Source: Desulfosoma sp. (GTDB lineage Bacteria; Desulfobacterota; Syntrophobacteria; Syntrophobacterales; DSM-9756). Taken from it: DNA of 64,000 nucleotides. The stretch is from assembly GCA_037481875.1 (NCBI GenBank), contig JBBFKY010000011.1, forward strand, positions 56,990 through 120,989. The letters are read 5' to 3'. Each line of letters begins with the position of its first letter. The first letter of the stretch is position 1. The position numbers were made by a program, and so were the translations under genes. Below the pieces are notes generated by a model. It saw only the letters and a list, made by a program, of their open reading frames with translations, did no database searches and was not told the origin of the DNA. Below, piece after piece: positions 31,947 through 43,332 of this stretch.

Positions 31947-32019
31947 TCCACAGTGGAGAAGGTTGGAAGAACGGTCCCGGGAAAGGGACACGGCACCAAG
32001 GGAGGATCCCGAAGGGTTG

Positions 32020-32481
32020 ATGAAGATCGCGGATATCTTGCCCAAAGAGGCGATTATCGCCGAACTGGAAGCCAGGACCAAAAGAGAGGTTTTGGAGGAA
32101 CTTACGGACGCACTGTTGCGTCACAAGCCTCAGTTGGATCGACATCGCCTGCTCGAGGTGCTTCTTGAGCGGGAAAAACTGGGGAGCACGGGCATCGGCG
32201 AAGGAATCGCCATCCCTCATGGAAAAATCGAAAACCTGGATCAATTGGTGGTCTCTTTCGGTAAGTCCACGCGAGGGATCGATTTCGAATCCATGGACGG
32301 CAAGCCTGCACATCTTTTCTTTCTTTTGGTGGCGCCGGAAAACTGTGCAGGAACCCATCTTAGAGCCTTGGCAAGGATCGCACGGTTCTTAAAAAGTGCC
32401 ACCGTACGACGCCGTTTGGGTTTGGCGGCTACACAAGAAGAGATCTTCAGCATCATTCAGCAGGAAGACGACGATTTTTAG
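32020..32481 (+). CDS. ptsN: PTS EIIA-Ntr (fructose-type IIA domain)
   Basis: This 153-residue IIA domain of the nitrogen-related PTS has phospho-accepting His67 in GEGIAIPHGKI and the following LVVSFGKSTRGIDFESMDGKPAHLFFLLVAPE block. It acts in regulation, not sugar uptake. The ATG at 32020 lies 7 bases after GAAGGG; an extension to 31963 has no family match. It follows hpf by 73 bases. No EIIBC sugar transporter is encoded nearby. Confidence 0.92.
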   Translation: MKIADILPKEAIIAELEARTKREVLEELTDALLRHKPQLDRHRLLEVLLEREKLGSTGIGEGIAIPHGKIENLDQLVVSFGKSTRGIDFESMDGKPAHLFFLLVAPENCAGTHLRALARIARFLKSATVRRRLGLAATQEEIFSIIQQEDDDF

Positions 32482-32721: not shown

Positions 32722-33600
32722 ATGCCGAAAAGGGAAACCCACCTGGTTATCGTCACCGGTCTTTCCGGCTCGGGGAAAAGTACCGCCATCAAGGCTTTTG
32801 AGGACATCGGCTATTTTTGCATTGACAATCTGCCGGTTCCCTTGTTGCCAAACTTTTTGGAACTCTGTGAAAAGGACAAGCCGGACCTCAAAAAGGTGGC
32901 CCTGGGCATCGATATTCGAGGCCGAAGTTTTCTTCGGGACTGTGACCGGCTCTTGGAGGCCGTGGAAGCCTTGGGCTACGCTTTGGAAATTCTCTTTTTT
33001 GAAGCCTCCACCGAAGTGCTTCAAAGGCGTTTCAGCCAAACACGACGCCAGCACCCCATCGGCGATCAAGAGTCTCGTTTGGTGGCCGCCATTCAAAAGG
33101 AACGCGAGGAACTGGGCTTCCTCAGAGCCCGCGCCACGCGCATCATCGATACCAGCGATTTTTCCGTGCATCAATTAAAGGCCTTGATCAATCGAACCTT
33201 TTCTTTGGTCAGTGATCGAGAGAGACTGAGCGTTCAAGTCTTGTCGTTTGGTTTCAAATACGGTTTGCCCATGGAGGCGGAGCTGGTCATGGATGTGCGG
33301 TTTTTGCCCAACCCTTATTTTGTGGATCATTTGCGGCCTTTAAGCGGGTGCGAAGCACCCGTACGGGACTGGGTTTTAAGTCACGGGGAAGCCGTGCAGT
33401 TCTTGGACGAATACACGGCCCTTGTCCTCAAACTGCTCCCTCACTATGTGGCGGAGGGAAAGCGCTATCTCACATTGGCCGTGGGCTGTACGGGCGGAAA
33501 ACACCGATCGGTGGTGATTGCTGAGCGCCTTGCTGACAGGGTTCGTGAAGCAGGTTATTATACCGTGTTATTTCATCGCGACGTCCATTTGGAAAGCTGA
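32722..33600 (+). CDS. rapZ: RNase adapter protein RapZ
   Basis: The product is 292 residues. Walker A is GLSGSGKST (residues 13-21), with IGYFCIDNLPVPLL after it, VALGIDIRGRSFL in mid-protein, and the conserved C-terminal half FGFKYGLPMEAELVMDVRFLPNP and VAVGCTGGKHRSVV. In E. coli RapZ senses glucosamine 6-phosphate and directs sRNA decay; in other bacteria its partners differ. It starts 240 bases after ptsN, a spacer with no other gene that I can support. Confidence 0.95.
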   Translation: MPKRETHLVIVTGLSGSGKSTAIKAFEDIGYFCIDNLPVPLLPNFLELCEKDKPDLKKVALGIDIRGRSFLRDCDRLLEAVEALGYALEILFFEASTEVLQRRFSQTRRQHPIGDQESRLVAAIQKEREELGFLRARATRIIDTSDFSVHQLKALINRTFSLVSDRERLSVQVLSFGFKYGLPMEAELVMDVRFLPNPYFVDHLRPLSGCEAPVRDWVLSHGEAVQFLDEYTALVLKLLPHYVAEGKRYLTLAVGCTGGKHRSVVIAERLADRVREAGYYTVLFHRDVHLES

Positions 33601-33649: not shown

Positions 33650-34108
33650 ATGTCGAGAATCGGACTGGTGGTGGCGGCCCATTGCCGTGTGGCTCAGGAA
33701 ATGGTCCAAGCGGCGGAATTGATCTTGGGACCCATGGAAGGGGTATGCGCCGTTTCCATGGATCCGGACACGCCTGTGGAACAGATGGTACAGACCTTGT
33801 CGGCTGTCATCAAGGATGTGGATGTGGGCTACGGGGTCATTGTCCTTACGGACCTCTTCGGCGGCACGCCGTCCAATGTGGCTCTGTCTTTCATGGGACC
33901 TCGCGTGGAAGTGCTCAGTGGTTTCAACCTGCCCATGCTCATCAAATTTGCGGAAATTCGCCACACGCAATCGCTGAGAGAAGCGGCGGCCACCCTTCGA
34001 GATTACGGGCGCCGCCATATTGCTTTGGCCAGCGAAATCTTGTCTTCCAGACCCGAAACCAAGGCACGAGAATCGGATCATGAGCGATCCCCTGCCCATA
34101 GTGATTGA
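33650..34108 (+). CDS. PTS mannose-type EIIA domain protein
   Basis: This 152-residue protein opens SRIGLVVAAHCRVAQEMVQAAELILG. His11 sits at the phosphorylated position of EIIA-Man domains (normally THGxLA). Later VGYGVIVLTDLFGGTPSNVAL matches the family GGTPxN motif. It is a stand-alone regulatory IIA, as often seen after rapZ in deltaproteobacteria. The ATG at 33650 follows GAGGAG; the frame is open back into rapZ. It overlaps the start of rimI by 29 bases. HPr and EI genes, which might be expected here, are absent. Confidence 0.88.
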   Translation: MSRIGLVVAAHCRVAQEMVQAAELILGPMEGVCAVSMDPDTPVEQMVQTLSAVIKDVDVGYGVIVLTDLFGGTPSNVALSFMGPRVEVLSGFNLPMLIKFAEIRHTQSLREAAATLRDYGRRHIALASEILSSRPETKARESDHERSPAHSD

Positions 34109-34607
34109 GCCCATTCGGCCGGAAGATGTTCCGGCTGTGATGGAAATAGAAAGAGCCAGTCATGTGGATCCTTGGCGGGAATCCTTTTTCGTGGAAGAGC
34201 TTGAAAGACCTCAGGCCCTGATGCTGGTGGCCCGTCATGGCGAGGATCCGCGCCGGCTGGTGGGTTACATCTGCGTCTGGCTGATTGCCGATGAAGTGCA
34301 GATCTTCAACCTCGCCGTGGATCCCGCTCTCAGAAGACGCGGCATCGGACGGCGGTTACTTCTGGCGGCCTTGCAGCATGCCTGCCAGAGAAACGCCCGT
34401 GTGGCCCTTCTGGAGGTGCGCCGCAGCAATCATGCAGCCCAGAAACTTTACCAAAGCGTGGGATTTCGACCCTTTGGAACGCGCCCCAATTATTACGAGG
34501 GGCTACGGGAACCGGCGGTGCTCATGGAACTGGAAATGGACCGAGGGTGGAGGGCCCGCTGGCTGAATTCCAAAAGTTTAGCACAGGGAGAGGAGAGGTC
34601 CTGTTAA
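34080..34607 (+). CDS. rimI: ribosomal-protein-alanine N-acetyltransferase (RimI-like)
   Basis: This 175-residue GNAT acetyltransferase has the RimI signature DVPAVMEIERASHVDPWRESFF, acetyl-CoA loop LAVDPALRRRGIGRRLLLAAL and LEVRRSNHAAQKLYQSVGF, ending at NYYEG. RimI acetylates the N-terminus of ribosomal protein S18. The ATG at 34080 lies inside the end of the EIIA gene. The stop overlaps the next start (TAATG), so the downstream giant protein is probably translated by coupling. The 25-residue tail after the GNAT fold is extra. Confidence 0.88.
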   Translation: MSDPLPIVIEPIRPEDVPAVMEIERASHVDPWRESFFVEELERPQALMLVARHGEDPRRLVGYICVWLIADEVQIFNLAVDPALRRRGIGRRLLLAALQHACQRNARVALLEVRRSNHAAQKLYQSVGFRPFGTRPNYYEGLREPAVLMELEMDRGWRARWLNSKSLAQGEERSC

Positions 34608-37600
34608 TGCAAAGGGCACGTGTGCAATCCGAGGCGCTCTTGAAGAACCTCATGGTGACCAATGTGCCGGTGAGGGTGGATCCCGGGCACGAAGTGCTGG
34701 TGGAGGCGGTTCAAGGCTACGCCGGTAAGGAAAAACAAGCCCGGGAGCTCCTAGTGGAGTATCATCATCGGTACCGCAACTGGGCTTACGTGCTCCAGGA
34801 AACCTGGCGGTACGCCACAGGAAACCTTCGTCTGTACCGAGAATTTTCAGAAAGCGCCGCCGTGGTGACTCTCCTGTGTCGCATCTTTCTGCATGCCCTC
34901 TCCGATTCCGAAAACCCCAAAACGCAATCTGCCGCCGCCGATTATCTTCTGGCCCTGTGGTTGAAGGTGCTCGAGGAATCCCCTGAACTGTGCCGGGAAG
35001 ATGCTTCCATGCCTCCGTTTGACGGAGACCGTGATCCTCTGCCGTCGGGAAGGGCTCACGGCGGCATTCTTCGATGGTGTTTGGCAAGACTCCAGGCCAT
35101 GGAGCCATCCGGCTTTCAATGGGTGGTACGGAGTTTTCATCAGCCCAAGAAAGTCCTTCGCCGATGTCTGAGCCTCTGGTCTTTTTCGGCTTCCTTCGTG
35201 GAAGGTCGGAGACTTTTGGATCGATTGCTTACGGAAACACACACTTTTTGGGCGCAACGGGAGGACCCTTTCGCCTGGCTTTCGCGCCAGTTGCAAGATG
35301 AGGTGGACGTGACGGCGTGGCGTCCTTTGTTCTCGCCCCTGCTTCACGCGGACCATGAAAGGGCTCTGCAGCATATTCAGAGCCTTCGGGCCGAAAAGGA
35401 TCCACGACGTGCCGTGGAGCAGTTGTGCGAGCTTGCGGATTTTCGAGACATTGTTCGAGCTTATCAGCAATTGGCGGACAAGGTGGGTCGATATGTGCCC
35501 GTGGAAATATCGGGGCATGTGAGTATGCTCTTGCGGTTGCGGATCATGGAAACCAAGGGGTTGGAGCCTATTCACGAAGAGACGTTGCGGGCCATGAATA
35601 TGGACGTGGGCCGATGGATTCGTGAGGAGTCCCAGGAAATCCTCCGGCCTCGTCTTACTCGGTTCCTTCAGGTGCTTCGAGGATGCTTGAACAATTACCC
35701 GGAAGCGGCGTTACACTGTGTCCGCACCGTTGGTCTGGAAATTCTGGGCACGGATGATAAGGAACTTATCGAATTTTTCCTTCGTCATGTGATCTGGCTC
35801 GGGTTTCAGACCCCCAAACTCAAGGGGGTTTCCCAGTACTGGCAGGTTCAGGTGAATCCGGCACACCTGACCAATATTCGTGTTTGGCTGGATCTCATTC
35901 GCAAAAACCCTCGGCGCACTCGAAGCTTGCTTTCCGCTCTCATCGTGAACCTTTTTCTAGCAGGCATTTATGTGCGCGACACGGATCTGTTTCAAAAGGA
36001 CGTCAGCCTTCTGTTGCATGCTCCTATTGCCCCGGTGTTCAATCTGATCAAGCAGTTGACCAAGCTCTTTCCCGTTTATTTCAATGAAGTGGGCGCGGAA
36101 GGGCTGCTTCGGGCTGTGTCCACGGATGTGGACGAAATCACACAGCGCGCAGACCCACTCATTCATTTTCTGCGCAAACAAAGCCATGTGGAAAGCAATA
36201 ACCTCATCGTCCTTTTTATTGAAGCCATCTTTCACTTTTGGCAGACGCTCGATAAGGAACCACTGAAAAGATTCACACCTCCTGAAGTCTATCGAGACGT
36301 GAGCGGAACAGGGCCCTTTGTGGATGACATGCATCGAATCTTTACAGGGCTTCTTTCCGGCGATGACGGCGTGCATCGTGTGAAGGATCTGCTGGATCTT
36401 TCCGAAGAAGTGGTTCGGTCGAAAATAGAGAAGATTCCCGGAGCGTCCGGTCGGGAAAAGCAGCGCGCTTTTCTCATGATTCGCTTCTACCAGTTGCTTC
36501 ACGAAAAGTATGCCCTGAGCTTCAAAGACATTCAGGTGCATTTACGCCGAGCCGCTCAGTTGGGATTACCGGATCCTCGGCCTTTGGAGCAGGCCCTTCA
36601 AGGTGAGGAGACCATCACCAAGCTGGAAGCCATTTTGGATTACTTGGAAAAGCTCAAGGACATTCTGCTCACCGAACAGGAAATGACCTTCGTGGAGAAT
36701 ATCTACCTCAAGAGACATATCGCTGTGGATATTCCTTCGATGTACGGTTCCTACAGTGAACGCAAGTTCGATGCTCTTGGACTTATGTTTCGCCTGGAAA
36801 ATCTGGCCAATGTGCTTTTTGAAGAAATCATTTTGTCGTTCAATCTAAGTTTCATCACGCGTGCCACATTCTTTCGCATCGGTCGTGTTCTCCCCCTCTT
36901 TATTCGAGCCCTGGCCTTGGATGGCATCACATCCCGGCGACTGGATCGTCAGGAAGAGTTGTTCCAGAGGGCGTTGCAGATTCGAAGATTTTCCCATTCC
37001 CAGTACATGGACATTTTCCGTGGATTTTCCGAAGCCATCAAGCAGCTTATCCAGAGCTTTTACAACGCGGTTCATGAAGACAATCTACGGGTAGTGATTC
37101 GGCAACTGAGCCAATCGGGAGACCTTTTGCCTAGGTACCAACGTCAGGACATGGGGGAAAAGGCGGAAGAACGTGTGCATCGCATCTCGGAGACCTTTTT
37201 ACGCGATCTTGTGGCGCGCACCTTTGGTTTGCAATACTTTGACCATTTTATCAGCAGTATCCTCACCACGCTGGCGACGCAAAGGGAGGAACTATCCACG
37301 GAAAAACTTGATCTACTGCTCAGCTACGATCCCGAAAAGACAATATCACGCATTTATGCACCCGATGATGCCACCTACGATTTAATTCATTTGGGAAACA
37401 AGGGATACAATCTCACTCAACTGCATTCCCTGGGGATTCGTGTGCCGCCTGGATTCATCATCACCACAGAATATTTCCGTTGCCAGGATGTCATTGAAAG
37501 TCTTCAGCAGTCCAAGGAAGACTTCAAAGCTCGAGTCATGGCGCACATTGCGGATTTGGAGCAGCGATCCGGAAGACGATTCGGCGATCCTCAAAATCCC

Positions 37601-38878
37601 TTGTTGTTGTCGGTGCGTAGCGGTTCAGCGGTTTCCATGCCGGGAATGATGAACACGTTCCTCAATGTGGGTATCAATGAGCAGATTGTGGAAGGTCTCA
37701 TTCGGCAAACGGGGCAGCCATGGTTCGCCTGGGACAACTACCGCCGATTTGTCCAGTCCTGGGGCATGTCTTTTGGGCTGGATCGCGATCATTTCGATGC
37801 CATCATGAAGTTTTACAAAAAGAAGTACGGGCGTGAGTTCAAGAGGGAGTTCAGCCCGCAGGAGATGCGGGAGGTGGCTTTGGCTTATCGGAAATACACG
37901 CAGGATTCCAGAATTGAGATAACGGATGACCCGGTCGAGCAGCTCTTTACGGCGATTCGACAAGTCATGGAATCCTGGTTTTTTCCCAAGGCCATCACCT
38001 ATCGAAAGATTATGGGGTTGTCAGAGAACTGGGGCACGGCCGTGACCATTCAAACCATGGTCTATGGCAATTTGGACCTCCAATCGGGATCCGGCGTGAT
38101 GTTCACCCACAACCCTTGGACCTCGGATGAGGAAATCGACCCAAGAGGGGATTTCACCCTTGGGAACCAAGGAGAAGACGTGGTGGGGGGGTTGGTGGAA
38201 ACTTTGCCTCTGTCTGAAAAGCAACGTTTGGCGGCAGGCGAGCGCAAGCAACACTCCCTGGAATCCTTGTTCCCTCGAGTTTTTGAGCGTCTAACGGAAA
38301 TCGCCAAGGAACTCATCTACCGCCAGAAATGGGGACCTCAGGAAATCGAATTCACGTTTCAAGGTTCCGACGGCGACGGGCTCTACATTCTTCAGTCTCG
38401 GAACATGGCACCGCGTACCAGCCGCCGCTATGCATGTTTCAAGGTGACAAACGAGTTGGAAAAAAGTTACCTTGGCCACGGCATCGGGGTGAGTGGAGGG
38501 GCACTGTGCGGTCGTGTGGCTTTTGAAGTCAATGAGATCGTGCGGCTGAAAAAAGATTATCCTGGAGAACCTATCATCTTGATCCGTTCGGACACGGTTC
38601 CCGATGACATTCATGAGATTTCCATTGCCGACGGCCTTTTGACCGGTAAAGGCGGAGCCACGTCCCATGCGGCTATCGTGGCCCATCGTTTGGGCAAGAC
38701 CTGTGTGGTAGGGTGTTCCAAAATGAGGGTCTGGGAACGGGACGGCCGATGCCTGATTGGAGGACGTTTTGTGAGAACCGGGGATGTGATCGGGATTGAC
38801 GGGCGTAGCGGAGCCATCTATGCGGGATTTCACGAAACCACACAGGCCGAAGAAAACGGCACCGCCTGCGCCGAGTGA
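34607..38878 (+). CDS. giant PEP/pyruvate-binding (PPDK-type) ATP-grasp and phosphohistidine-domain protein
   Basis: The protein is 1,423 residues. Residues 1-920 are mostly helical and match nothing I recognise. From about 929 (LGNKGYNLTQLHSLGIRVPPGF) to about 1290 there is a pyruvate-phosphate-dikinase ATP-grasp module, including LSVRSGSAVSMPGMMNTFLNVG near 1003 and GSGVMFTHNP. A swivelling phosphohistidine domain ends the protein, with GGATSHAAIVAHRLGK and His1354. The PEP/pyruvate TIM barrel that completes PPDK and PEP synthase is absent; the chain stops about 70 residues after the His. ATP-dependent phosphorylation of an unknown acceptor is the best guess. Start overlaps the rimI stop. 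Two GAPDH genes follow. Confidence 0.85.
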   Translation: MQRARVQSEALLKNLMVTNVPVRVDPGHEVLVEAVQGYAGKEKQARELLVEYHHRYRNWAYVLQETWRYATGNLRLYREFSESAAVVTLLCRIFLHALSDSENPKTQSAAADYLLALWLKVLEESPELCREDASMPPFDGDRDPLPSGRAHGGILRWCLARLQAMEPSGFQWVVRSFHQPKKVLRRCLSLWSFSASFVEGRRLLDRLLTETHTFWAQREDPFAWLSRQLQDEVDVTAWRPLFSPLLHADHERALQHIQSLRAEKDPRRAVEQLCELADFRDIVRAYQQLADKVGRYVPVEISGHVSMLLRLRIMETKGLEPIHEETLRAMNMDVGRWIREESQEILRPRLTRFLQVLRGCLNNYPEAALHCVRTVGLEILGTDDKELIEFFLRHVIWLGFQTPKLKGVSQYWQVQVNPAHLTNIRVWLDLIRKNPRRTRSLLSALIVNLFLAGIYVRDTDLFQKDVSLLLHAPIAPVFNLIKQLTKLFPVYFNEVGAEGLLRAVSTDVDEITQRADPLIHFLRKQSHVESNNLIVLFIEAIFHFWQTLDKEPLKRFTPPEVYRDVSGTGPFVDDMHRIFTGLLSGDDGVHRVKDLLDLSEEVVRSKIEKIPGASGREKQRAFLMIRFYQLLHEKYALSFKDIQVHLRRAAQLGLPDPRPLEQALQGEETITKLEAILDYLEKLKDILLTEQEMTFVENIYLKRHIAVDIPSMYGSYSERKFDALGLMFRLENLANVLFEEIILSFNLSFITRATFFRIGRVLPLFIRALALDGITSRRLDRQEELFQRALQIRRFSHSQYMDIFRGFSEAIKQLIQSFYNAVHEDNLRVVIRQLSQSGDLLPRYQRQDMGEKAEERVHRISETFLRDLVARTFGLQYFDHFISSILTTLATQREELSTEKLDLLLSYDPEKTISRIYAPDDATYDLIHLGNKGYNLTQLHSLGIRVPPGFIITTEYFRCQDVIESLQQSKEDFKARVMAHIADLEQRSGRRFGDPQNPLLLSVRSGSAVSMPGMMNTFLNVGINEQIVEGLIRQTGQPWFAWDNYRRFVQSWGMSFGLDRDHFDAIMKFYKKKYGREFKREFSPQEMREVALAYRKYTQDSRIEITDDPVEQLFTAIRQVMESWFFPKAITYRKIMGLSENWGTAVTIQTMVYGNLDLQSGSGVMFTHNPWTSDEEIDPRGDFTLGNQGEDVVGGLVETLPLSEKQRLAAGERKQHSLESLFPRVFERLTEIAKELIYRQKWGPQEIEFTFQGSDGDGLYILQSRNMAPRTSRRYACFKVTNELEKSYLGHGIGVSGGALCGRVAFEVNEIVRLKKDYPGEPIILIRSDTVPDDIHEISIADGLLTGKGGATSHAAIVAHRLGKTCVVGCSKMRVWERDGRCLIGGRFVRTGDVIGIDGRSGAIYAGFHETTQAEENGTACAE

Positions 38879-38916: not shown

Positions 38917-40242
38917 ATGGGCGAGCAAGAAAAAATGGTCCCTCAGAAGTTGGGTATCAATGGATTGGGTCGCATTGCCAAGCTGACCATCTGGCATCAC
39001 GTAGAAAGACAGTATTTTTCCGAACTGGTGGTCAATATCGGTCGAGAAGTGGGGCGAAGCCTTGAAGATATCGCCATGTTTATTGAAAAGGACTCCACTT
39101 ATGGAAGGCTGCATCATTTCTTGTATGGCTGCCGAGCTTCGCGCGTCATCGAGGAAATCAATGACCAAGAAGGATCCATGCGCATCAATGGCGTAAAGAC
39201 CACTTTTTTGAGAAAGCACAGGAATCCGGCCGATATCGGCTGGAAGGAACATGGCGTGGAAATTGTCGTGGACGCCACGGGAGCTTTTCTGGATCCCACA
39301 GTGCCGGCGGAGGATCCTAAGGGGTCGGTAAGAGGTCATCTGGTGGCGGGAGCCCGCAAGGTGATTGTTTCGGCACCGTTTAAAATCAAGGACAAATCCA
39401 AAGAGATGCCGCCCGATGCGGTCACGACGGTCATGGGCATCAACGATGCGGACTTTGATCCCAAGCGCCATGTGATCGTCTCCCATGCTTCGTGCACCAC
39501 CACATGCCTGGCCTACATGGTCAAGCCCCTTCTGGACTATTTCGGTCCCATGCGCATCCTTTCGGCATCCATGGCCACGGTGCATGCGGCAACCCCTTCC
39601 CAACAGGTGCTGGATCGAGCTCCCAAGGCCAAGGCAGACGACCTGAGAAAGACTCGGTCCGTGTTCAACAACATTATTCTCACCACGACCGGTGCAGCCA
39701 AAGCTTTGGGACTGGTTATTCCGGAAATGAAGGAAATCGGGTTCATCGCCGAATCCGTGCGTGTGCCGGTGACGACAGGATCCTTGATCATTTTGGTGGT
39801 CCTTATTCAAGACGAAAGCATGAAAAATCCCATTAACCGAAACCTTATCAATGACATTTACCGAAAGGCTCAGAGCCACTTTCCCGACGGTTACCTCTTG
39901 TATACGGACGAACAAAACGTTTCTTCGGACATTATCGGTTTGCCTAGAGCGGCCGCCGTCATTGAGGGCCACGAAACACACACCCGCACGGCCGCCGTGC
40001 GCTTCGACCTCAACCACGTGCTCAACGTGTGTGCCGCTTTGTCTTCAGAACAGGGATCGGCTTTTGATGTGGAGCAAGTACTTAAAAAAGCCGATAAAAC
40101 CCTCAATGCTGAACAGCAAGCCAGAATCATTCAGATTCCTGTGACGCAAGCGGTCATTTACGGATGGTATGATAACGAATTGGGAAGCTACACCAATATG
40201 TTGGGGGATCGTACGGTCGGTATTGCCAAGATGCTGCGCTGA
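38917..40242 (+). CDS. glyceraldehyde-3-phosphate dehydrogenase-like protein, long divergent form
   Basis: This 441-residue protein is about 100 residues longer than classical GAPDH. Near the start is the Rossmann motif GINGLGRIAKLTIW. It keeps catalytic Cys193 in SHASCTTTCLAYMVKPLL and the active-site His in ATVHAATPSQQVLDRAP, then LTTTGAAKALGLVIPEMK, DGYLLYTDE-type substrate strands and the final WYDNELGSYTNML. Extra length lies in the N-terminal third and near the end. It is followed 25 bases later by a standard GAPDH. It may have another coenzyme or direction preference; that is inference. Confidence 0.85.
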   Translation: MGEQEKMVPQKLGINGLGRIAKLTIWHHVERQYFSELVVNIGREVGRSLEDIAMFIEKDSTYGRLHHFLYGCRASRVIEEINDQEGSMRINGVKTTFLRKHRNPADIGWKEHGVEIVVDATGAFLDPTVPAEDPKGSVRGHLVAGARKVIVSAPFKIKDKSKEMPPDAVTTVMGINDADFDPKRHVIVSHASCTTTCLAYMVKPLLDYFGPMRILSASMATVHAATPSQQVLDRAPKAKADDLRKTRSVFNNIILTTTGAAKALGLVIPEMKEIGFIAESVRVPVTTGSLIILVVLIQDESMKNPINRNLINDIYRKAQSHFPDGYLLYTDEQNVSSDIIGLPRAAAVIEGHETHTRTAAVRFDLNHVLNVCAALSSEQGSAFDVEQVLKKADKTLNAEQQARIIQIPVTQAVIYGWYDNELGSYTNMLGDRTVGIAKMLR

Positions 40243-40267: not shown

Positions 40268-41275
40268 ATGGCTGTCAGGGTTGCTATCAACGGATTTGGT
40301 CGCATCGGTCGCATGGTTTTTCGCGCTATTGTGGAACGCGGCAATCCACTGGAAGTAGCGGCTTTGAACGATTTGGGAAGCCCTGCCGAATTAGCTCATC
40401 TGCTGCGTTACGATTCCGTTCACGGCACATGGCATCGAGACATTTCCTCAGACGATGAAAACATTTATGTGGACGGCAAGGCCTACAAATGCCTCAAGGT
40501 GGGGGACCCCAGCCAAGCCCCATGGCGAGACTTGGGCGTGGACATTGTGTTGGAAACCAGCGGTCGTTTTCGGGACAAGGCCGCTTGTCTGAAGCACATG
40601 GATTCAGGGGCCCGTAAAGTCATCCTGGGGGCTCCCGGCAAGGGCATGGATGCCACCTTTGTCATGGGAGTCAACCATGACCAGTATGATCCCATGAAGC
40701 ATCACATCGTCTCCAATGCTTCCTGTACCACCAATTGTCTGGCGCCTATCATTCGCGTGCTGCACGACCGGTTCGGCGTCGAACACGGTCTCATGACCAC
40801 CATCCATTCTTACACCATGGATCAAAGGCTTTTGGACGCGCTCCACAAGGATCTGCGAAGGGCTCGAGCCGCAGCTCTTTCGATGGTGCCCACCACGACG
40901 GGAGCGGCCACAGCGGTGGCGGAAGTCATCCCGGAACTCAAAGGAAAATTGGACGGCATGGCCATTCGCGTTCCCACGCCCAATGTGTCCATTGTGGATG
41001 TGGTGTGTCGCGTGGAAACGGACACCACGGTGGAAGCCGTCAACCAAGCTCTAAAGGAAGCCGCCGAAGGGCACATGAAGGGCATACTGCGTTACGTGGA
41101 AGAAGAATTGGTCTCGGTGGATTTCAACCATACCACCTACTCGTCGTGCGTGGACGCGCCTCTTACCAAGGTTATCGATAAGCGGATGGTCAAGGTGCTC
41201 AGCTGGTATGACAACGAATATGGGTATTCCAACCGTCTGGTGGACCTGGCTCTGCACATGGGCAAGGACCTGTAA
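40268..41275 (+). CDS. gap: glyceraldehyde-3-phosphate dehydrogenase
   Basis: This 335-residue classical GAPDH has NAD-binding AINGFGRIGRMVFRAI, catalytic Cys153 in SNASCTTNCLAP, His in TTIHSYTMDQRLLD and the C-terminal SWYDNEYGYSNRLVDL. It interconverts glyceraldehyde 3-phosphate and 1,3-bisphosphoglycerate. AAGGAG precedes the ATG. It lies between the divergent paralogue and pgk-tpiA, forming a lower-glycolysis/gluconeogenesis cluster. The open frame upstream to 40169 is inside the previous gene. Confidence 0.96.
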   Translation: MAVRVAINGFGRIGRMVFRAIVERGNPLEVAALNDLGSPAELAHLLRYDSVHGTWHRDISSDDENIYVDGKAYKCLKVGDPSQAPWRDLGVDIVLETSGRFRDKAACLKHMDSGARKVILGAPGKGMDATFVMGVNHDQYDPMKHHIVSNASCTTNCLAPIIRVLHDRFGVEHGLMTTIHSYTMDQRLLDALHKDLRRARAAALSMVPTTTGAATAVAEVIPELKGKLDGMAIRVPTPNVSIVDVVCRVETDTTVEAVNQALKEAAEGHMKGILRYVEEELVSVDFNHTTYSSCVDAPLTKVIDKRMVKVLSWYDNEYGYSNRLVDLALHMGKDL

Positions 41276-41350: not shown

Positions 41351-42547
41351 ATGAAAACATTGGATCACGTGGACGTTTCGGGAAAGCGTGTGTTTATCCG
41401 CGTGGATTTTAATGTGCCTTTGGACAAAAAGGACGGCCGAGTTGCCGATGATGCTCGAATCCACGCTATTTTGCCCACCCTGAAAAAAGTGATGGATGCC
41501 GGGGGTAAGGCCGTTTTGGCGTCCCATTTGGGCAGACCCAAGGGTAAAGTGGTGCCGGAGATGAGCTTAGCACCTGTGGCAAGGCATCTTTCGGGCATAT
41601 TGGGCCGAGAAGTTTCTTTGGCTCCCGATTGTGTGGGGCCCGAGGTCCAGGCCATGGTGCGAGATGTGCCTTTTGGAGGAGTTCTCCTTCTTGAAAACCT
41701 AAGGTTCCACCCCGAAGAAGAAAAAAACGATCCGAACTTTTCCAAGGAACTTGCGTCTCTTGCCGATGTGTACGTCAATGACGCTTTTGCCGTCTCTCAT
41801 CGCGCCCATGCTTCCGTGCATGGCATTACCGAATACGTGGCGGTGTGCGCGGCGGGCTATCAGCTGGCCAAGGAAGTGGAATATTTCAAGAAGTCCGTAG
41901 AAACGCCTGAGCGTCCTCTGGCTGTGGTGATAGGGGGCGCCAAGGTTTCCACCAAGATCGGAGTGCTGGAAAACCTTATTCCCAAAGTGGATCTTCTCGT
42001 GATCGGTGGGGCCATGGCCAACACCTTTCTCAAGGCGCAGGGCTACGGCGTGGGAAAATCCATGGTGGAAGAGGAATATGTCGACAAAGCGACGGAACTC
42101 TTGCAACTGGCCAAAGATCGCGGTGTTCGTGTGCTTCTGCCTATGGATGTGGTGGTCGCTCCAGCTTTGGAATCGGGAGCCCAGGCTCAAACCGTGAATT
42201 TAAATGCCGTCCCTGAAGACGCCGCCATCTATGATGTGGGGGAACGCACTCTCGAGACTGTCAAGGAAGCTCTGAAAACATGTGCGACCATCGTTTGGAA
42301 CGGTCCTCTCGGTGCTTTTGAAACTCCGCCTTTTGAAAGGGGAACCTTTGCTCTCGCGGAATTCTTGGGGTCGACCAAGGCCCTGACGGTGATCGGTGGA
42401 GGGGATTCCGCCAGCGCGGTCAAACAGGCTGGTGTGGCTCAGAAAGTCAGTTATGTTTCCACAGGAGGCGGCGCCTTTTTAGAAATGATGGAAGGAAAGA
42501 TCCTGCCTGGTATCGAAGCCTTGGAAGCTTGCATGGGTAAGGAGTAG
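41351..42547 (+). CDS. pgk: phosphoglycerate kinase
   Basis: This 398-residue kinase has the N-terminal substrate-binding block [33 protein letters not shown] and [19 protein letters not shown]. The C-terminal nucleotide domain includes [34 protein letters not shown] and GGGDSASAV. It transfers phosphate from 1,3-bisphosphoglycerate to ADP. The ATG at 41351 has GGGAGG upstream. It continues the gap-pgk-tpiA cluster; tpiA begins 2 bases after its end. Confidence 0.97.
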
Positions 42548-42549
42548 TC

Positions 42550-43332
42550 ATGGGTACGAATGCGCGCCTACCTCTTATGGCGGCCAACTGGAAAATGCAT
42601 TTGAGCGTGGCGGAAGCGGTCTCCTTTGTCGCCAAGCTTCATGAAGCCGTGGGAAGTCCCGAGGATCGCGAGGTGCTCATCGCTCCGCCGTTCACTCATC
42701 TTTGGCCGTTACGGGAAGCCATGAAAGCGGCCGGATTTTCTTTAGCCGCCCAAAACTGCCACTGGGAACCCAAGGGAGCTTTCACCGGCGAAGTGTCTCT
42801 GGGAATGATACTGGAAACGGGATGCCGCTACGTCATTGTGGGACATTCGGAAAGGAGGCACATTTTCGGAGAATCCGATGCCTGGATCGGTTTAAAAACC
42901 GCAGCGGCTCTAGCGCAAGGGGTGGTGCCCATATTGTGTATCGGTGAAAAGATCGAAGAGCGGGAAGCGGGATTAACGGTGGAGGTGCTGCGCCGTCAGT
43001 TGAGCACGGCTCTGGAAAAGGTCCATTTGCAGGCTTCGAGCCGGTTGGTCATAGCCTATGAACCGGTTTGGGCCATCGGCACAGGCAAGACGGCAACACC
43101 CGAACAGGCTCAGGAAGCCCATGCTTTTGTTCGACAATGGCTGGAAGAACGCTTTGACAAAGCGGTTGCAAACGGTATGCGAATATTGTATGGAGGCTCG
43201 GTCAAGCCGGACAATGTGGACCATCTCATGGCTCAGCCCGATATTGACGGGGCCTTGGTTGGAGGAGCGAGCCTGGAGGTGGGTTCCTTTGCCCGAATTG
43301 TTCAATTCACAAGGAGTGTGAGAAGCGGCTGA
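42550..43332 (+). CDS. tpiA: triosephosphate isomerase
   Basis: This 260-residue TIM barrel opens LPLMAANWKMH and has the catalytic His in YVIVGHSERRHIFGE and Glu in IAYEPVWAIGTGKTATPEQAQE. Phosphate is held by YGGSVKPDN and GALVGGASL. It interconverts dihydroxyacetone phosphate and glyceraldehyde 3-phosphate. The stop overlaps the secG start (TGATG), so SecG synthesis is coupled to it, a common tpiA-secG arrangement. Confidence 0.97.
   Translation: MGTNARLPLMAANWKMHLSVAEAVSFVAKLHEAVGSPEDREVLIAPPFTHLWPLREAMKAAGFSLAAQNCHWEPKGAFTGEVSLGMILETGCRYVIVGHSERRHIFGESDAWIGLKTAAALAQGVVPILCIGEKIEEREAGLTVEVLRRQLSTALEKVHLQASSRLVIAYEPVWAIGTGKTATPEQAQEAHAFVRQWLEERFDKAVANGMRILYGGSVKPDNVDHLMAQPDIDGALVGGASLEVGSFARIVQFTRSVRSG

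Follow-up and report, generated by a model that had tools for sequence, protein, structure and literature searches.

A barrel-less, PPDK-like phosphotransferase of Desulfobacterota and Nitrospirota tracks a divergent GAPDH

The 64,000-nucleotide stretch of Desulfosoma DNA analysed here (the window; all features below lie on its plus strand) encodes a 1,423-residue PPDK-like barrel-less phosphotransferase, which we call PPDKL (34607–38878, stop codon included), and, as the next gene, a divergent GAPDH of 441 residues, GapA1 (38917–40242). In every genome sampled the presence of one matches the presence of the other, an exact tracking that is new, and we judge PPDKL itself to be a new variant within the dikinase family. 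PPDKL is probably an ATP/His phosphotransferase that is coupled to GapA1 and acts on an acceptor other than pyruvate. The best explanation overall, which we hold tentatively, is a PPDK-derived dikinase with a replaced acceptor module, paired with GapA1.

Catalytic half of PPDKL

PPDKL was recognised from its ORF together with profile and structure–sequence matches. Its ATG shares one base (TGATG) with the stop codon of a RimI-like GNAT acetyltransferase gene (34080–34607), and the same methionine opens the proteins of its relatives. Pfam finds two families alone in PPDKL, both within the last 500 residues: PPDK_N (residues 929–1198 and a second stretch, E = 4.8e-36) and PEP-utilizers (1321–1402, E = 4.9e-17). 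The PPDK-type ATP-grasp spans about residues 924–1290 (37376–38476) and conserves K932, R1004, SMPGMM (1010–1015), R1047, E1190/D1191, E1248, Q1263 and R1265; the swivelling phosphohistidine domain, also located by profile and structure–sequence matches, follows at residues 1291–1412 (38477–38842) and carries the invariant catalytic His1354 (codon 38666–38668) in a GG-x-TSHAA motif. These conserved positions, H1354 included, correspond to residues that are catalytic in PPDK. The nearest solved structures to the C-terminal 502 residues are PPDKs (1kbl, E = 2.6e-86), with both the ATP-grasp and the His domain aligned, so that the two modules claimed in an earlier note on this DNA are both matched, by Pfam and by the alignment to 1kbl. 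Among NCBIfam models, PPDK (TIGR01828) ranks first, at 394 bits against a cut-off of 843. In their SMPGMM loop and QGED motif these residues follow PPDK, not PEP synthase, a hint that PPDKL uses Pi.

A Pfam profile search finds no PF02896 match (the PEP/pyruvate TIM barrel) in PPDKL, in agreement with the missing barrel reported earlier. The chain ends 61–75 residues past the His in every relative with the His motif, except those cut by contig ends, and the barrel is absent from all complete members. The earlier note had raised a separately encoded PEP-binding partner as an objection; PF02896 barrels in the genome are confined to Enzyme I (EI) and the canonical PPDK, which leaves no barrel partner that stands alone and rules out supply of the missing barrel by a separate gene.

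The same genome holds other PPDK_N proteins. One of 994 residues on contig C2 (L050:1582–4566) also has no barrel; PEP-utilizers went undetected in it, its His motif looks degenerate (VTGHEAV), and many genomes of the order have relatives of about this length. Three further PPDK_N proteins (frames of 911, 925 and 782 residues; C1:307104–318416 and C4:45676–46827) have no PF02896 match, which points to several possible barrel-less dikinases in this genome. Defence-system models gave no match. In a plasmid search, among the matches listed, the catalytic half alone was matched, and no record covers 80% of the PPDKL query.

N-terminal region and family spread

The earlier note had called the N-terminal ~920 residues unlike any known domain, and this still holds: the region has no match above noise in Pfam, NCBIfam, PHROG or PDB sequences, and weak matches to Apg12, Fis and the like were judged to be chance. 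An AlphaFold model built with 59 relatives predicts that the region is all-helical (pLDDT 88), and on this model we reject the circularly permuted PEP/pyruvate barrel that had been raised as a second objection. Two parts can be told apart. Residues 1–394 (34607–35788) form a predicted all-alpha, HEAT-like solenoid of low conservation; generic importin/HEAT-type structural matches span about residues 35–480, and a known fold was rejected for the N-terminus, as the importin-type solenoid matches from Foldseek reach a TM score of only about 0.15. Residues 395–918 (35789–37360) form a conserved helical module, a putative acceptor domain, delimited by AlphaFold, Foldseek and conservation, in which a single beta-hairpin (695–718) is predicted. 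Folded alone, this module reaches a pLDDT of 88.2. Foldseek returned nothing for it below an E value of 0.03, a result that does not by itself prove a new fold.

Across 59 sequences, residues 441–540 and 700–740 equal the catalytic domains in conservation, whereas residues 1–390 vary; conservation at this level argues that the N-terminal region is not there by chance. The module is rich in invariant Arg, Lys and His. Its first motif, residues 498–527 (36098–36187; EGLLRAVSTDVDEITQRADPLIHFLRKQSH), includes R502, D509, D516, R523, K524 and H527, and its second, residues 702–722 (36710–36772; KRHIAVDIPSMYGSYSERKFD), includes K702, R703, H704, P710, S711, G714, Y716, E718 and F721. From sequence conservation, we read the cationic residues as a putative anion-binding acceptor site. 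The earlier proposal of a barrel-less ATP/His phosphotransferase whose N-terminus binds the acceptor thus gains support from the conservation of this acceptor-like module.

PPDKL shares with PPDK (TIGR01828; 1kbl) the PPDK-type ATP-grasp, the phosphohistidine domain, the catalytic residues and the domain order, but it lacks the PEP/pyruvate barrel and carries ~920 unrelated N-terminal residues. Rifampicin phosphotransferase (RPH), HpeHI, CreHI and PpsAB likewise join an ATP-grasp and a swivelling His domain to an acceptor domain for something other than pyruvate (PMC4844700, PMC12167813). By analogy with RPH and HpeHI, PPDKL has the architecture of a dikinase whose acceptor domain has been exchanged, but it belongs to the PPDK branch and carries its module at the opposite end of the chain. 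RPH and the two-component small-molecule dikinases have a PEP-synthase-like ATP-grasp, whereas that of PPDKL is PPDK-like; the acceptor domain of RPH (residues 327–754, cross-shaped with an alpha/beta arm) sits between the ATP-grasp and the His domain, whereas the order in PPDKL is N-terminal helical module, ATP-grasp, His. The RPH acceptor domain is not among the Foldseek or VIA matches listed for residues 395–918, and the similarity to 5fbs is confined to the sequence of the His domain.

The family is uniform, with complete members of 1,358–1,461 residues that place the His ~70 residues before the end, and it occurs in Desulfobacterota and Nitrospirota. All complete relatives share the barrel-less domain order, which answers the earlier call to check it in related genomes. 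Named loci include Desulforhabdus, Desulfoferrobacter, Thermodesulfatator, Desulfobulbus, Electrothrix, Thermodesulfovibrionales and a Nitrospinota MAG. In the closed genome G116 (L153:3433–7600), PPDKL is found in two overlapping frames of 651 and 794 residues, and it is likewise split in G326; the split in G116 could reflect either a sequencing error or a real two-part protein. We found no description of the family in the openly readable literature; subscription papers lay outside this search, and an earlier description is possible.

A distant subfamily (L146, L147, L149 and L150, with L148 in genome G336) combines the same putative acceptor module, an ATP-grasp and a His domain in 1,451–1,510 residues at ~30% identity; the L148 member is without the TSH motif. 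At least four of its five sequences retain R502, D509, D516, R523, K524, H527, K702, R703, H704 and IPS 709–711. In a small tree of catalytic halves, with long branches and duplicate rows, the distant subfamily falls together with PPDKL (80/99) and apart from PPDK, weak support for grouping it with PPDKL rather than PPDK. The genomes of this subfamily have no GapA1, so the acceptor motifs alone are not diagnostic of a GAPDH-linked substrate.

GapA1 and its co-occurrence with PPDKL

Among 297 Desulfobacterota genomes, the same 89 carry GapA1 and full-length PPDKL (Fisher p = 3e-76, with the relatedness of the genomes ignored); the only exception is G336, with a weak, different protein. Among 197 Nitrospirota genomes, an identical 22 carry GapA1 and full-length PPDKL. 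GapA1 was also present in 25 of 25 genomes reached from PPDKL loci, cases in which the genes are not adjacent included. In the closed genomes G067 and G230 the two genes are unlinked (310 kb versus 2.73 Mb in G067), so linkage alone does not explain their co-occurrence.

Proximity is common all the same. Of the 57 named loci with enough flank, 46 have a GAPDH gene no more than 1.5 kb from PPDKL, or 47 counting L069, where the gap between the two genes is zero bases. Across the 57 loci, the GapA1 type lies downstream of PPDKL in 34 and a canonical GAPDH upstream in 16, and Thermodesulfatator shows the order gap-PPDKL-gapA1-pgk-tpi. In the window, two very different GAPDH genes stand in tandem, GapA1 and the canonical type-I GapA2 (40268–41275, from a family match), followed by genes for phosphoglycerate kinase (PGK; 41351–42547, an ORF with a PF00162 match at G000:C11:98349–99488) and triose-phosphate isomerase (42550–43332, an ORF named from its sequence).

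GapA1 shares with type-I GAPDHs the GAPDH domains and the catalytic Cys (in S-C-T/S-T) and phosphate-binding Thr and Arg, with the His kept in nearly all members. It differs from them in being ~30% identical to GapA2, in falling below the TIGR01534 cut-off and in family-specific insertions, one of which bears the motif ETHTRT in 30 of 41 GapA1 proteins; none of 28 canonical GAPDHs has this motif. At the NAD-specificity position, all 41 GapA1 proteins have N-x-G-R where all 28 canonical GAPDHs have N-D-L/M. Loss of the Asp at this position favours NADP(H), and the replacement suggests that GapA1 uses NADP(H). Three complete genomes (G081, G116 and G259) lack the canonical enzyme and yielded no type-I GAPDH other than GapA1, so GapA1 probably acts on the triose path.

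Candidate roles for the pair

In the reading that we favour, the N-terminal helical module of PPDKL would stand in place of the PEP/pyruvate barrel of PPDK. His1354 would be phosphorylated by ATP, probably together with Pi, yielding AMP and PPi, and the swivelling domain would pass the phosphate on to an anionic acceptor bound through the invariant Arg, Lys and His of residues ~450–730. We lean towards a small molecule as the acceptor. PPDKL would function as a pair with GapA1, and the GAPDH pairing suggests the kinase-plus-reductase logic of carboxylate activation, in which a kinase forms an acyl phosphate that an enzyme of the GAPDH fold reduces. The first candidate is 3-phosphoglycerate, which could be converted through 1,3-bisphosphoglycerate to glyceraldehyde 3-phosphate, driven by the conversion of ATP to AMP and PPi, or the steps could run in the opposite direction and win back ATP; that 3-phosphoglycerate itself is the acceptor is possible, but we would not bet on it. 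We give similarly limited credence to the wider proposal of an unrecognised two-enzyme step in central carbon metabolism, in which a Pi-dependent dikinase with a new acceptor domain would activate a phosphorylated carboxylate such as 3-phosphoglycerate, spending ATP to AMP and PPi, or recover ATP from it, and an NADP(H)-type GAPDH would take over the acyl phosphate. All 71 high-quality genomes tested keep PGK, which makes a second enzyme forming 1,3-bisphosphoglycerate seem superfluous, much as PPDK seems alongside pyruvate kinase.

The co-occurrence is compatible either with consecutive reactions or with protein–protein regulation, and the main alternative takes the second course. PPDKL could be a regulatory kinase or scaffold whose solenoid binds GapA1 and whose His domain phosphorylates it or switches it in some other way, setting the direction of triose-phosphate flow. 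A HEAT-like solenoid is typical for protein binding, co-occurrence is strict where adjacency is not, and GapA1 has a conserved ETHTRT-bearing insertion that canonical GAPDHs lack. However, the most conserved part of the N-terminal region is the cationic module rather than the solenoid, it resembles a site for a small anion, and it also occurs without GapA1; we regard this regulatory role as rather unlikely.

It is quite improbable that PPDKL still forms or uses PEP through a new pyruvate-binding domain. Its catalytic half is of the PPDK type, and similar proteins go under the name PEP synthase: Dissulfurimicrobium has three GAPDHs and several 'PEP synthases', one of which, LGS26_08520, is numbered between the GAPDHs 08515 and 08525 (PMC8780430). 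From this locus numbering, rather than from its sequence, we infer that LGS26_08520 is a misannotated PPDKL in the same arrangement. Against a PEP dikinase, the Desulfosoma genome already has a canonical, barrel-bearing PPDK, the barrel that defines pyruvate binding has given way to an all-helical module, and PEP synthesis does not account for the strict link to GapA1.

Equally improbable in our view is an energy device in which the PPDKL/GapA1 step runs backwards, with PPDKL regenerating ATP from AMP, an acyl phosphate derived from GapA1 and the PPi that is plentiful from sulfate activation. PPDK chemistry is reversible, and several carriers known by name reduce sulfate or disproportionate sulfur, but the NADP-type signature of GapA1 speaks for biosynthesis.

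Glucan dikinases are related enzymes that also lack the barrel, and PPDKL might phosphorylate glycogen as a bacterial alpha-glucan dikinase, by analogy with plant glucan water dikinase. A gene for a GlgA-like glycogen synthase lies upstream of PPDKL in 11 loci (L101, L125 and nine others), mostly in Desulfobulbales, and an alpha-glucan phosphorylase gene lies nearby in a Nitrospirota locus (L116:5193–7322). This role is very improbable, since glycogen genes adjoin PPDKL in some lineages only, Pfam finds no carbohydrate-binding domain (CBM, starch- or glycogen-binding module) in PPDKL, and the invariant partner is GapA1 rather than a glycogen enzyme.

The window also places PPDKL beside genes of the PTS: a PtsN-like EIIA-Ntr (31963–32481) and RapZ (32722–33600), both from family matches, and a mannose-type EIIA (33653–34108). 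PPDKL has such neighbours in Syntrophobacteria and Thermodesulfatator, but they are absent from the inspected Nitrospirota, Desulfobulbales and Thermodesulfobacteria-type loci, and the arrangement looks like an inherited lptAB-rpoN-hpf-ptsN-rapZ-EIIA-rimI string set beside a gap-PPDKL-gapA1-pgk-tpi string (L096). The earlier note had placed PPDKL where HPr and EI genes might be expected; the locus does lack them, but the genome does not, as the search proposed there turned up an intact HPr–EI pair on contig C2 (L049:8072–8344 and L049:8489–10291). Enzyme I has a phosphohistidine domain distantly related to that of PPDKL (a weak match), but PPDKL has neither its barrel nor its HPr-binding N-terminal domain. 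HPr went undetected in 36 of 80 PPDKL-carrying genomes, among them the closed genomes G081, G116, G147 and G173 and all 22 Nitrospirota tested. That PPDKL phosphorylates the PTS chain (HPr, EIIA) from ATP, replacing or bypassing EI, is therefore scarcely credible in spite of its neighbours here and its related His domain: the missing HPr rules out a conserved PTS role, an HPr–EI pair is already present, the PTS neighbours are limited to certain lineages and the partner that PPDKL tracks is a GAPDH.

Overall, the link to GapA1 points toward an unrecognised step of central carbon metabolism and away from sugar-uptake signalling. Anaerobic and autotrophic bacteria seem to have a large, conserved enzyme family that passes as 'PEP synthase' or 'PEP/pyruvate-binding protein', and its acceptor module would be a new substrate-binding domain in the dikinase superfamily. 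If the pairing reflects a shared step, then the map of lower glycolysis and gluconeogenesis in many sulfate reducers and Nitrospirota misses a reaction and its energy cost.
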